From NCBI RefSeq assembly GCF_013408685.1, contig NZ_JACBZY010000001.1:496001-560000 (forward strand): DNA of 64,000 nucleotides. Direction: 5' to 3'. The position numbers were made by a program, and so were the translations under genes. Below, in pieces: positions 6,333-63,182 of this stretch (positions within the stretch are counted from its first letter, which is position 1; each line of letters opens with the position of its first letter). This DNA is from Schumannella luteola. GTDB taxonomy: Bacteria > Actinomycetota > Actinomycetes > Actinomycetales > Microbacteriaceae. The notes beneath the pieces were generated by a model. That model made no database searches, was not told the origin of the DNA, and was given only the letters and a program-made list of their open reading frames with translations.

Positions 6333-6376
6333 CAGGGGTGGGGCCCCGGAGCTGCGGCTCCGGGGCCCCACCCCTG
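6333..6376. terminator. Strong 20-bp hairpin terminator
   Basis: A perfect 20-bp inverted repeat (6333-6352 with 6357-6376) with a TGCG loop lies between the convergent PEBP and IclR genes. It lacks a T-tract and could stop transcription from both sides. Confidence 0.8.
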
Positions 6377-9102: not shown

Positions 9103-9172
9103 CTCCGCGAGAGTACGCAGTCTGCGGGCCGGACGCGGCGTGTCGCGGCGCAAAGTGCGTACTCTCACGGAG
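9103..9172. repeat. 70-bp palindromic element B
   Basis: Seventeen-base terminal inverted repeats (9103-9119 and 9156-9172, 16 of 17 paired) starting CTCCGCGAGAGTACGCA. The core GGCGTGTCGC is at 9137-9146. It is a sister copy of element A, differing mainly in the middle left part. Confidence 0.8.
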
Positions 9173-13788: not shown

Positions 13789-13856
13789 CACGCTGACCGC
13801 GGCCGCCGACCCTCCGGGGGCTCTCCGGATGCGGGTCGACGGCCGCGGTCAGCGTG
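13789..13856. repeat. Long hairpin I between convergent genes
   Basis: Arms of 24 bp with one mismatch (13789-13812 and 13833-13856) enclose a 20-base loop. It separates convergent genes and can act as a bidirectional terminator. Its 68-bp size matches the palindromic elements elsewhere in the window, but it has no TGTCGC core. Confidence 0.7.
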
Positions 13857-23171: not shown

Positions 23172-23226
23172 TGATCGGTCGCTAACTGTCGCTATCCGGC
23201 CGGCGGTTTCAGTTGGCGACCGATCA
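23172..23226. repeat. Palindromic element H
   Basis: TGATCGGTCGCTAACTG (23172-23188) pairs 16 of 17 with 23210-23226. A second inverted repeat, CGACAGTT/AACTGTCG, spans 23165-23191 and shares bases with the left arm, so two alternative hairpins exist. It lies between the convergent GntR and putA genes and may terminate both. Confidence 0.65.
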
Positions 23227-30806: not shown

Positions 30807-30871
30807 TCGCCGAGATGTCTCGAACGTCTCGCGCTCGCGGCGTGTCGCGGGCATTCGCGACATCTCGGCGA
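30807..30871. repeat. 65-bp palindromic element C
   Basis: Arms 30807-30828 and 30850-30871 pair at 19 of 22 positions, starting TCGCCGAGATGTCT. The centre contains GCGGCGTGTCGCGG; its GGCGTGTCGC core at 30839-30848 matches that of elements A and B although the arms differ completely. Located in the divergent promoter region of the thioesterase and hydrolase genes. Confidence 0.75.
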
Positions 30872-31657: not shown

Positions 31658-31773
31658 TCGCAATTCAGGATCCGAACCGACGCAATTCAGGATCGGAGCC
31701 CGGATCCGGCGCCGTTTCACCCGGTCCGCGCGGTCGGATCCTGAATTGCGAGCCCGTCGATCCTGAATTGCGA
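31658..31773. repeat. Nested double palindrome G
   Basis: Four copies of a 15-base unit CGCAATTCAGGATCC/G: two forward at 31659 and 31681, and two inverted ending at 31750 and 31772. Spacing is 22 bases on both sides, so the element is symmetric over 116 bp. The first and third units pair over 18 bases and the second and fourth over 15. It lies between convergent genes. Confidence 0.8.
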
Positions 31774-37600: not shown

Positions 37601-37646
37601 CGCGAATGGGCGGCCTCCCCGAACGGGGGGAGGCCGCCCATTCGCG
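37601..37646 (+). terminator. Strong 20-bp hairpin terminator
   Basis: A perfect 20-bp stem (37601-37620 with 37627-37646) with a GAACGG loop follows the first LGFP gene by 14 bases, and a TTCT-rich stretch comes after it. Confidence 0.85.
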
Positions 37647-46915: not shown

Positions 46916-48313
46916 CTAGGCAGGGGCGCTGTCGTCCCCGGACGATCCCAGGAGGCGTCCAGCCTGCTCCCGGGCTCCGGCCACGACCGCGGCCAGCCCG
47001 GTGCCGGATCCAGCCTCTCCCACCAGGTGCATTCCGTCAACGGCATGAACCGCACGTGACGCCCGGCTCCAGGTCGCGATGGCCGTGCCGACGGGGTCGG
47101 CGAGGGGCACGCCGGTGAGCGCGCTCGCGTCGGCCAGCGCCTGCGCGGCGGGGTCGGCGGGGCGCTCGTCGTAGCTGAGACGCAGCACGTGACGGCTGCG
47201 ACCGGGTGCGGATGCGGCGCCCGCCTCGGCGAGCCAGGCCCACTTCGCGGTCGCGTGCGTGAGCGCGCGGGCGACGACGCCGGGGGCGTCGGCGGCGACC
47301 AGCACGCCGGTCCCCCGCGGGGCCGAGTCGAGCCCGGGCGCATCGACCACGAGGGTGACGAGCGTGATCTCGCGACTCTCGGGGCGCGCTTCGGCGGGCA
47401 GCAGTGCGGGCGTCGCGAGCACGACCTGCCCCTCGAAGCGCTCCCCTGCCTCGGTGGTGATCACCGAGTTGCCCGCTTCTGCCGGGTTCCGAGCGTCCAA
47501 CCCGGCAGAAGCGGGCAACTCGACATGGGCATCGGCCTGCGCCGGTTCGATGCTCGCCACGCGCACGCCGGTGCGCACCTCGCCGCCGAAGCGCTCGATC
47601 TCGGCGACCAGCGCATCCACGATGCGGTGCACGCCGCCGCGGAGCCCGGCGACCTGGGAGCCGGCGGGGGCCCGCTCACGCAGGCTCTGCACCGCCCGGG
47701 CCAGCGAGCCCTCCCGACGCATGGCCCCGATCAGGCCCGGTGCGGCACGGTCGATCGGCAGCTCGTCGGGGTGCATCGAGTGCACGCCGCGCACGACCGG
47801 CGCGACCAGTCCCTCGAGCACGCCGACGCCCATCCGCCGTCGCACCAGCTCGCCGAGCGTCGTCGACTTCGCGGCGACGAGACCCGGGATGAGCGAGTCG
47901 AGCTGCGCACGCCACGCGCCGCCGCCGCCGACCGCGGCGATCACGTCGGCCGCCATCGGCACGCCGGGGATGCCGAGGATGCTCGTCGCGGGCAGCGGCG
48001 TCGACGAGCCGTCAGCACGGTGCAGCCAGGCCGGGGTCTCGGCGGGGGTGACCACGTCATCCGCCAGCCCGAGCTCGCCGACCAGGGTCGCGACGGTGCC
48101 GCCGCGGGTCGCGAACGACTCGGCGGCCGCATCGAGGTCGAGCCCCGCCACGGTCTGCCGGGCGAGCTGACCGCCAGCGCGATCCGACGCCTCGAGCACG
48201 ACCACGGGACGCCCGCGGCGGGCGAGCTCCCACGCGAGCACGAGCCCGCCGACGCCCGCGCCGATCACGTAGGTCGTGGCGTAGTCCTCGGGGCGCTGCG
48301 CGCGGTCGGTCAC
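46916..48313 (-). CDS. cgoX: Coproporphyrinogen III oxidase (HemY-type, cgoX)
   Basis: FAD enzyme that oxidises coproporphyrinogen III to coproporphyrin III. The FAD site YVIGAGVGGLVLAWEL (residues 15-30) is followed by VVVLEASDRAGGQL. Family features EGLVAPVVRGVHSM and VAGLRGGVHRIVDAL are present. Residues 265-283 (ELPASAGLDA plus RNPAEAGNS) are encoded by an inserted palindromic DNA element and have no counterpart I expect in the family; they fall between two strands of the substrate/FAD region. GTG start lies 7 bases after hemE. Confidence 0.93.
   Translation of the reverse strand: MTDRAQRPEDYATTYVIGAGVGGLVLAWELARRGRPVVVLEASDRAGGQLARQTVAGLDLDAAAESFATRGGTVATLVGELGLADDVVTPAETPAWLHRADGSSTPLPATSILGIPGVPMAADVIAAVGGGGAWRAQLDSLIPGLVAAKSTTLGELVRRRMGVGVLEGLVAPVVRGVHSMHPDELPIDRAAPGLIGAMRREGSLARAVQSLRERAPAGSQVAGLRGGVHRIVDALVAEIERFGGEVRTGVRVASIEPAQADAHVELPASAGLDARNPAEAGNSVITTEAGERFEGQVVLATPALLPAEARPESREITLVTLVVDAPGLDSAPRGTGVLVAADAPGVVARALTHATAKWAWLAEAGAASAPGRSRHVLRLSYDERPADPAAQALADASALTGVPLADPVGTAIATWSRASRAVHAVDGMHLVGEAGSGTGLAAVVAGAREQAGRLLGSSGDDSAPA
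47465..47522. repeat. Palindromic element E inserted in frame in cgoX
   Basis: Perfect 24-bp arms (47465-47488 and 47499-47522) flank a 10-base loop. On the coding strand 57 of the bases form 19 in-frame codons. Arms begin GAGTTGCCCGCTTCTGC, nearly the same as element D at 63061-63116. The whole palindrome is translated without stop. Confidence 0.85.
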
Positions 48314-48320
48314 GGGCGGG

Positions 48321-49397
48321 TCACTCCTCGCCGTGCACGACGCGCACGATGCGGGTCAGCACGTCGGGGTCGGTCTCCGGCGGCACGCCGTGGCCCAGGT
48401 TGACGACGTGCGCGGGTGCGGCGAGTCCGCGGTCGACGACCTCGTCGACGTGCGAGCGCAGCGTCGACCAGGGCGCCCCGAGCAGGGCCGAGTCGATGTT
48501 GCCCTGCAGCGGCGTCGTACCGCCGAGTCGACGGTTCGCCTCGTCGAGCGGGATGCGCCAGTCGACGCCGATCGCATCCGCGCCGATGTCGCGCATCACG
48601 TCGAGGAACTCGCCGCCGCCGAGGCCGAAGTGGATCTTCGGCACCGTGCGGTCGTCGGCGTCGGCGATGCCGCGCAGGTGCGAGAAGGCGCGCTCGGAGT
48701 GCGGCGCGACACGGCGCTGGTAGTCGCGGCGCGACAGCGAGCCCACCCAGGAGTCGAACAGCTGCACGGCGCTCGCGCCCGACTCGACCTGGGCGCGCAG
48801 GAACTCGCCCGACACGTCGGCGCACCAGTTGAGCAGCGTCGCCCAGGCGTGCGGGTCGGAGTACATGAGAGCGCGGGCGCGGCCCTGATCCTTCGACGGC
48901 CCGCCCTCGACGAGGTAGCTCGCGAGGGTGAACGGAGCGCCGGCGAAGCCGATCAGCGGGGTCTCGCCGAGCTCGGCGACCGTGAGCTTCACGGCCTCGC
49001 GGATCGGGTCGAGCGCGGACGGCTCGATCGGGCGCAGCTTGAGCACGTCGGAGGCGGTGCGGATGGGCTCGTCGATCACCGGGCCGCGACCGGGCACGAT
49101 CTCGACGCCGACGCCGGCCAGCAGCACCGGCACGACGATGTCGCTGAAGAAGACCGCCGCATCCACCCCGTGCCGTCGCACCGGCTGCAGCGTGATCTCG
49201 CTCGCCAGCGCGGGGTCGAGGCAGGCGTCGAGCATCTTCGTGCTCACCCGCAGCTCGCGGTACTCGGGCAGGCTTCGGCCGGCCTGGCGCATGAACCACA
49301 CGGGGGTGCGCTCGGGTCGGTCGCCGCGCAGGGCGCGCACCAGCGGAGAGCGCGTGGTGCGGCCGTCGACGAGGGGATGCTCGGCGCTCAGACTCAC
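48321..49397 (-). CDS. hemE: Uroporphyrinogen decarboxylase
   Basis: Removes four carboxyls to give coproporphyrinogen III. Signature PVWFMRQAGRSLPEYR is present at about residue 32, then VDAAVFFSDIVVP and IGFAGAPFTLASYLVEGG. The last motif LQGNIDSALL fits. GTG at 49395-49397 gives 358 aa; the longer frame to 49514 would overlap the hemA promoter. It starts the minus-strand haem operon and is divergent from hemA. Confidence 0.96.
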   Translation of the reverse strand: MSLSAEHPLVDGRTTRSPLVRALRGDRPERTPVWFMRQAGRSLPEYRELRVSTKMLDACLDPALASEITLQPVRRHGVDAAVFFSDIVVPVLLAGVGVEIVPGRGPVIDEPIRTASDVLKLRPIEPSALDPIREAVKLTVAELGETPLIGFAGAPFTLASYLVEGGPSKDQGRARALMYSDPHAWATLLNWCADVSGEFLRAQVESGASAVQLFDSWVGSLSRRDYQRRVAPHSERAFSHLRGIADADDRTVPKIHFGLGGGEFLDVMRDIGADAIGVDWRIPLDEANRRLGGTTPLQGNIDSALLGAPWSTLRSHVDEVVDRGLAAPAHVVNLGHGVPPETDPDVLTRIVRVVHGEE

Positions 49398-49476
49398 GCG
49401 CCCATCCTCCCACCGCGCGCCTGCGGGCCCGCTCGGGCGGATCGGGGCCATGCGCTCGCCCGAGAACTGAGCATCC

Positions 49477-49504
49477 TTGCCGGTAAGGGTGCCCTTTCTA
49501 TACG
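49477..49504 (+). promoter_or_regulatory. Probable hemA promoter
   Basis: TTGCCG at 49477-49482 and TATACG at 49499-49504 with a 16-base spacer are close to the main sigma consensus. The spacer holds the imperfect dyad AAGGG-TG-CCCTT (49484-49495), and GGTAAGGGT also occurs in the possible iron box at 7541. Start codon is 22 bases downstream. Confidence 0.55.
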
Positions 49505-49525
49505 GTGCGCGCACGCGGTTTTACC

Positions 49526-63000: not shown

Positions 63001-63060
63001 CTCACTCGCCGCATCCCCGTCGCCCCGACCCGCCCGTCCCCGCCCCACCTCCCCGTTCCC

Positions 63061-63116
63061 GAGTTGCCCACTTCCGCGGCCTGTCGCGCGACGGATACCG
63101 CGGAAGCGGGCAACTC
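63061..63116. repeat. 56-bp palindromic element D
   Basis: Arms 63061-63079 and 63098-63116 pair at 18 of 19 bases (GAGTTGCCC...). The centre is CCTGTCGCGCGACGG, close to the GGCGTGTCGCG core of elements A-C. The arms are nearly those of element E inside cgoX. It lies between gtrA and the esterase. Confidence 0.8.
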
Positions 63117-63182
63117 ACGACACACCCCGGGGACTCGGGAACCACCCGCTGACCCCTCCGCCTCGAGAACCGGACCCTGCTC

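Follow-up and report, generated by a model that had tools for sequence, protein, structure and literature searches.

The window analysed here is the whole 64,000-nucleotide stretch of Schumannella luteola DNA. It holds a palindromic element that is translated within a porphyrin-pathway flavoprotein gene, and a second copy of this element in an intergenic spacer. The features concerned are the following.

46916–48313, minus strand: host gene (cgoX), encoding a protoporphyrinogen/coproporphyrinogen oxidase-like flavoprotein (CgoX/HemG type) of 465 residues, identified by Pfam, NCBIfam and PDB matches
47465–47522, no strand: perfect 24-bp inverted repeat including the flanking C/G pair, from an inverted-repeat search
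47466–47521, minus strand: type B 56-bp palindromic element, in frame in the CgoX/HemG-type gene, where it encodes residues 265–283, ELPASAGLDARNPAEAGNS
63061–63116, no strand: second window copy, type A, intergenic, 60 bp past one plus-strand gene and 66 bp ahead of the next

The host protein matches Pfam Amino_oxidase (66.5 bits) and, below the cut-off of 517, the NCBIfam protoporphyrinogen oxidase model PRK11883 (102 bits); its best PDB match is the protoporphyrinogen oxidase (PPO) 3I6D, and the gene next to it (48321–49514) is presumably hemE-like. The first-pass annotation had described a perfect 24-bp inverted repeat with a 10-base loop, in frame within an FAD oxidase gene, and this is borne out by both the inverted-repeat search and the open reading frame: the arms (47465–47488 and 47499–47522) are 100% complementary over 24 bp and enclose a 10-nt loop. 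This is the longest perfect arm in the window for loops of 3–60 nt, against 11–15 in 40 dinucleotide shuffles. RNA folding gave −51.3 kcal/mol (z = −10) for the coding strand of the cgoX element and −43.5 kcal/mol for the second window copy. The same annotation had counted 19 added codons, a number that arises because the repeated unit itself measures 56 bp (GAG...CTC), to which one base is added; residues 265–283 are encoded by the element, but the number of residues gained may differ from 19, as the length of the surrounding loop varies between species. It had also matched the arms to an intergenic element D; an arm does match 63060–63117, with 3 mismatches in 19 and as the sole other place in the window, which is presumed to be that element. 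Alignment to PPO 3I6D, together with the loop-length variation, suggests that the inserted peptide lies in a loop (a single-sequence AlphaFold model of the host protein had a mean pLDDT of 38.2 and was not used).

CgoX was compared among relatives. Matches were obtained in 46 genomes of the family, from which 28 loci of other genera and 3 of the genus were used; 27 of these 31 loci were extracted, and after five wrong-frame picks (L089, L093, L098, L100 and L110) had been ignored 22 were left, 19 of them from other genera. In G001 (84% protein identity) and G002 (81%) the gene carries the element at the position it has in S. luteola; G004 does not have it, and G003 is uninformative because only a C-terminal fragment was recovered. 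The insert is thus present in three of the five genus genomes, that of S. luteola (G000) included, and the ELPxS...GNS peptide is missing from all 19 of the usable other-genus relatives, so that the widespread conservation which the first-pass annotation had named as contrary evidence was looked for and not found in these relatives. Its suggestion of a recent insertion has to be given up, since three Schumannella species share the insert. Among relatives, the stretch of CgoX loop between the anchors used ranges in length from about 11 to 63 residues.

The three copies differ in the fate of the hairpin, which is perfect in S. luteola, good in G002 (−39.1 kcal/mol) and lost in G001 (−21.3 kcal/mol, z = −0.37); in the last case it has decayed with the frame kept, and therefore hairpin function is not needed there. 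Non-synonymous and synonymous codon changes number 6 and 2 within the element between S. luteola and G001, and 8 and 0 between S. luteola and G002, against 64 and 92, and 80 and 114, respectively, in the rest of the gene. Because the changes in the element are mostly non-synonymous, the peptide looks tolerated rather than needed. Between S. luteola and G002, pairs 10/47 and 17/40 differ on both sides with pairing kept and with amino acids changed in both arms; of two further pairs, one is broken and the other survives as G-U. Pairing that is kept through amino-acid changes argues that an arm-matching process, either hairpin selection or arm-to-arm copying, acts or has acted on the DNA.

The cgoX copy belongs to a family that is abundant in the S. 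luteola genome, where we count 27 elements by arm pairing, of which 26 measure exactly 56 bp and the other 54 bp. Allowing up to 2 mismatches, the arm pattern matches this genome 29 times forward and 26 times in reverse, compared with 2 and 5 for the reversed pattern, and 50 of these 55 matches fall in the 27 elements. A covariance model built from 45 elements of several genera (R1) has the cgoX copy as its top match in the genome (73.9 bits), this copy being also among the training sequences, and gave 54 strand-matches in S. luteola, 52 in G001, 46 in G002, none in G003 and 3 weak ones in G004. Across the Microbacteriaceae, 35 of 199 genomes and 25 of 85 genera match at 1e-4, some with a single weak match; the filters of this family-wide scan were stricter, and some matches may be missed. 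The distribution is patchy even within one genus (g3), with 0 matches in G006 and 42 in G089. The exact pattern occurs in 47 stretches of the species-genome collection, 45 of them named as Microbacteriaceae (Schumannella, Glaciihabitans, Cryobacterium, Amnibacterium, Leifsonia, Salinibacterium, Naasia and a Microbacteriaceae MAG) and 2 from one ‘uncultured actinobacterium’ MAG. It had no match in viral contigs, and a blastn search with the cgoX copy had none in plasmids and phages. Nothing in Rfam reached the gathering score for nine S. luteola loci; the cgoX copy had weak matches only, mostly to microRNA-precursor families and all below gathering scores. Among the matches listed in a search of the open-access literature, no description of this palindrome in Microbacteriaceae was found.

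The unit is 56 bp long (55 bp in G188 and G100) and is flanked by a pyrimidine and a purine (Y-GAG...CTC-R), the base preceding GAG being C or T in 301 of 302 cases when both strands are read. Its outer arms, GAGTTGCCC-(A/G)-(C/G)-TTC, are common to the genera and its inner stem is lineage-specific. In the stem 88.1% of cells are paired, and covariation reaches 0.260, whereas shuffling gave 0.114 (0 of 500 reached the observed value) and sliding no more than 0.102. The nearest neighbour falls in the own lineage group for 175.9 of 196, where shuffling gives a mean of 41.0 and a maximum of 64.3. In the majority of the groups, such as G043, G089, G134, both Leifsonia and Cryobacterium, the consensus has inner arms that match each other; pairing of the inner stem is poor in the consensus of G145, Amnibacterium and the KTt MAG. 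In the three element-rich Schumannella genomes (G000–G002), types A and B alternate in 17 of 17 classified neighbours within 200 bp, a count in which orthologous arrays are not independent, and one more neighbour pair held an unclassified copy. Two types are also seen in G134, where by manual reading they alternate in 14 of 19 neighbours and fail to do so in 5.

Among 18 orthologous pairs, differing positions amount to 8.7% in the outer arms, 30% in the inner stem and 42% in the loop, and 16 compensatory changes were counted where 5.4 are expected; these are not taken as pure pairing selection because A/B type switches at a shared site account for part of them. The intergenic window copy at 63061–63116 has its orthologue in G001 at L167:2013. 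That the outer arms diverge least and that many sites are conserved between species would both be expected of a binding site for a dimeric DNA-binding or nucleoid protein, selected at fixed loci. A double-strand site, however, has no need of an inner stem that differs between genera by matched substitutions, and neither the in-frame copies nor the arrays that change in copy number between species fit such an origin, which we consider distinctly unlikely. Our preferred reading is that of a palindrome that has been dispersed and amplified within lineages.

The positions of the copies bear on a second alternative. According to our own codon-usage gene calls, 13 S. luteola elements are convergent, 11 tandem, 2 divergent and 1 coding (four of these contexts rest on a weak neighbouring call), and 151 strict elements from seven other genomes divide into 71 convergent, 62 tandem, 11 divergent and 7 coding, of which 4 are internal (cgoX being counted double, for G001 and G002), the others lying internally or at the C-terminus. 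By comparison, when every spacer of 60 bp or more in the same loci is counted, those that hold an element among them, 71 are convergent, 131 tandem and 67 divergent. In tandem spacers the median distance is 32 bp to the upstream 3′ end and 121 bp to the next start, and 49 of 62 copies lie closer to the former. This 3′ location and convergent bias, as well as the strength of the hairpins in the two window copies (−51.3 and −43.5 kcal/mol), is consistent with bidirectional transcription terminators that share their sequence by chance, the cgoX copy being an accident. Yet no T-run follows the hairpin: the mean T fraction in the 10 nt 3′ of the elements is 0.15 and the highest single value 0.6. 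Some actinobacterial terminators are reported to lack U-tracts, and therefore the intergenic copies may act in termination. Termination would nevertheless not require the near-fixed length, the outer arms shared across genera or the pyrimidine ahead of GAG, and it leaves aside the in-frame copies inside at least six well-identified genes. As an account of the family as a whole we regard it as unlikely, and continue to favour a dispersed element, some copies of which could be of use at gene ends.

Sites were also compared between species. Element regions of S. luteola align with 11 of the 15 G001 regions and 7 of the 14 G002 regions compared; one further G002 region (L185) aligns to a stretch of the S. 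luteola window without an element, and for the remaining 4 and 6 regions the S. luteola counterpart lies outside the compared set. Many sites are old, being shared between species, and present-day mobility may therefore be low or nil. Array sizes differ between species (1 versus 3, and 3 versus 2). No transposition event was detected: a clean empty site was found in none of four aligned spacers. The element at 592018 of S. luteola, shared with G002, is missing from G001 as part of a larger difference. At L184 (G002:C2:230775) an element sits at the junction of stretches that lie about 5 kb apart in S. luteola (468976, inverted, and 474047), a possible breakpoint. Elsewhere (G000:C1:2024582-2025146, L034) a 417-bp gene, which we take to be RidA-like, lies between two elements; the aligned G002 spacer contains one element, with the gene absent.

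The inverted-repeat structure, dispersion and patchy presence within genera would also suit a MITE, that is, a short non-autonomous derivative of a DDE transposon. Against this, a target-site duplication of 4–9 bp accompanies 0 of 177 elements (shorter duplications were 7 of 3 bp versus 3.0 expected and 21 of 2 bp versus 18.4 expected), no element of greater length with such ends was seen in S. luteola, where 50 of the 55 arm matches are accounted for by the 27 elements, and nearly the whole element is stem. We judge a MITE origin improbable, and prefer to see in the family a REP-like palindrome. The Y1 transposase domain (Y1_Tnp, PF01797) is absent from 27 of 28 genomes, including G000–G002 and seven element-rich genomes; the sole match is a fragment with an internal stop in G003, an element-free genome. 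A REP-associated Y1 transposase (RAYT) was accordingly rejected as partner, PF01797 not having been found in element-rich genomes. A common flanking mobile gene was sought by clustering 415 flanking proteins. Clusters spanning at least two genera numbered 25, and one member of each of the first ten was matched against Pfam: nine belong to common families, namely an ABC transporter, aldehyde dehydrogenase, LacI, MFS, aminotransferase, DEAD helicase, DNA glycosylase, Clp protease and short-chain dehydrogenase, and the tenth has no Pfam match.

The search for coding copies covered the 27 S. luteola elements, 175 detections in seven genomes, the exact-pattern loci and 22 further sites. Internal copies were found in eight genes including cgoX, and the reading frame of the left arm is identical in all eight (frame 0), giving ELPxS or the variants ESP, EVP, DSP and ALP. 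Besides cgoX, the host genes are:

PxpBC-like protein, G002: internal, frame 0, ELPSSAGFDGANPTEMGNS
Amidohydrolase, uncultured MAG: internal, frame 0, ELPTSAGVTPREPAEVGNS
Urocanase (hutU), Leifsonia flava (G105), L256: internal, frame 0, ELPTSASASRAPRAEVGDS
Imidazolonepropionase (hutI), Leifsonia flava (G105), L256: internal, frame 0, ESPTSAGPGHAALMEVGNS
PriA, G188: two copies of the 55-bp version, EVPTSVP...
TatB-like protein tail, G142: identification less sure (NCBIfam 62.6 bits, cut-off 96)
MFS transporter, G245 (genome of another family): identification less sure, diverged element, ALPRSVA...

Six of the eight host genes are well identified, the TatB-like and MFS proteins being less sure. 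The hutU and hutI genes of L. flava are neighbours, each with an insert, and both inserts recur in G200 and are absent in G029. Where L. flava urocanase has 32 residues, the B. subtilis-type urocanase 2FKN has 2, and therefore this insert lies in a linker whose length exceeds that of the element by itself. The loops of the proteins without the insert (CgoX of G004, HutI and HutU of G029) differ by lengths other than that of the element. Were all frames equal, agreement on a single frame would have a chance of 3 × (1/3)^8, or about 5e-4, which is modest. In 169 elements the three frames are open on 309, 273 and 292 of 338 strands. The permissive frame is the poorest in Cys, Trp and Phe (2.9%, against 11.5% and 11.0% in the other two), which fits selection against the other frames. 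Five genes terminate within an element in the same frame (L120, L150, L245, L204 and L298). Frame 2 is used in two doubtful places, L204:1643 (a C-terminal tail) and L212:1633 (a predicted start), which the frame count omits together with L301, a doubtful start in a diverged 54-bp element; the detections L178:2879 and L188:1853 were dropped as weak and probably due to chance.

This recurrence weighs on the possibility that the 19 residues are a functional CgoX peptide and the DNA palindrome incidental. The frame is kept in three species, and in G001 it is intact where the hairpin has decayed, as such a function would predict. Related peptides from the same element, however, occur in seven unrelated proteins, non-synonymous changes dominate the insert, and S. 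luteola and G002 retain pairing at columns 10/47 and 17/40 through amino-acid changes in both arms. We consider a functional peptide highly improbable. The first-pass annotation had likened the cgoX insertion to Rickettsia palindromic elements (RPEs). In support of this likeness, a dispersed palindrome is translated in frame within cgoX, and seven other genes show the same frame, which is what an RPE-like reading would lead one to expect.

Taken together, it is likely that the cgoX feature is a copy of a dispersed, lineage-amplified, RAYT-less REP/BIME-like palindrome of the Microbacteriaceae, with RPE-like coding copies. Copies would be placed by a non-RAYT process that recognises the hairpin, and insertions landing in a flexible loop or linker in a tolerable frame would survive, after which the peptide would be free to drift. 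At gene 3′ ends the hairpin may be tolerated, or may be useful as a structure for 3′-end stability or processing.

Two studies allow this family to be set beside known systems. RPEs are described there as about 150 bp long and nearly half intragenic (PMC10969869, PMC3733652). Like them, the present elements are dispersed palindromes with copies translated in frame in unrelated genes; unlike them, they are 56 bp long, occur in free-living Actinobacteria and are mostly intergenic (26 of 27 in S. luteola), a comparison by description. In-frame palindromes had earlier been tied to Rickettsia, which is too narrow: PMC3733652 reports intragenic REPs in several bacteria. GTAG/CGTC-tagged REPs are described in the same source as 3′-biased, forming dimers and lying within ORFs of several bacteria, many of them replication/repair genes. 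The Microbacteriaceae element resembles these in being palindromic and present in many copies, in its 3′-end and convergent bias, in its dimers or groups and in some intra-ORF copies (PMC3733652), and the general description of a REP (an imperfect palindrome in many copies, mostly extragenic and 3′-biased) applies to it. The words ‘actinobacteria’ and ‘microbacter’ are absent from the main text of PMC3733652. The present family differs from tagged REPs in having no GTAG/CGTC tag, its ends being Y-GAG...CTC-R, in its length of 56 bp rather than 20–40 bp, and in that a Y1 transposase was not found in element-rich genomes. In view of the missing tag, and of a Y1 transposase not found in the element-rich genomes searched, we do not file it as a tagged REP, nor as an RPE family.

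In enterobacteria, BIMEs form short arrays downstream of genes, with two alternating palindrome types, and gyrase, IHF and Pol I are their protein partners. The alternating types in arrays of Schumannella (17 of 17) and G134 (14 of 19) are similar to this arrangement, whereas sequence and length are different and a RAYT was not found. Intragenic REPs have already been published for other bacteria, and the Microbacteriaceae family is a variation on them. What it offers are protein-coding palindromes in free-living Actinobacteria, in a family whose orthologous copies can be compared across many species, which makes two questions open to direct test: the way in which REP-like elements spread in the absence of a RAYT, and the reading frames and protein loops in which they are tolerated. 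Annotators of Microbacteriaceae genomes should expect inserts of about 19 residues, ELPxSxG...ExGNS, in unrelated enzymes.

A more tentative extension, which we put forward as conceivable but somewhat doubtful, is that the Microbacteriaceae, and perhaps other families of the order, harbour an undescribed superfamily of self-dispersing RAYT-less hairpins with lineage-specific self-complementary inner stems, moved by a novel enzyme, in which the single ELPxS frame would be a recurrent source of in-frame insertions and thus an actinobacterial counterpart of RPEs. An order-wide scan matched 11 of 297 genomes at 1e-6, 8 of them outside the family. Nine order-level sites that were inspected are palindromes of 54–57 bp, most of which differ in their outer arms; several have a TTC-N-G-like core. 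They may be relatives of the Microbacteriaceae family. Near-perfect 56-bp palindromes with other arms were seen in other families of the order at G438 L295:1505, G315 L294:1542 and G380 L306:1539.

The window itself contains further long intergenic inverted repeats with arms of 18–24 bp, at 6333–6376, 13789–13856, 30807–30871, 31681–31750 and 37601–37646. Copies of these five are absent from the loci compared, and they are therefore perhaps ordinary terminators or single hairpins. Two other inverted repeats, at 9103–9172 and 23172–23226, lie between convergent genes and are each matched in two of the compared loci; these could represent other small palindrome families.
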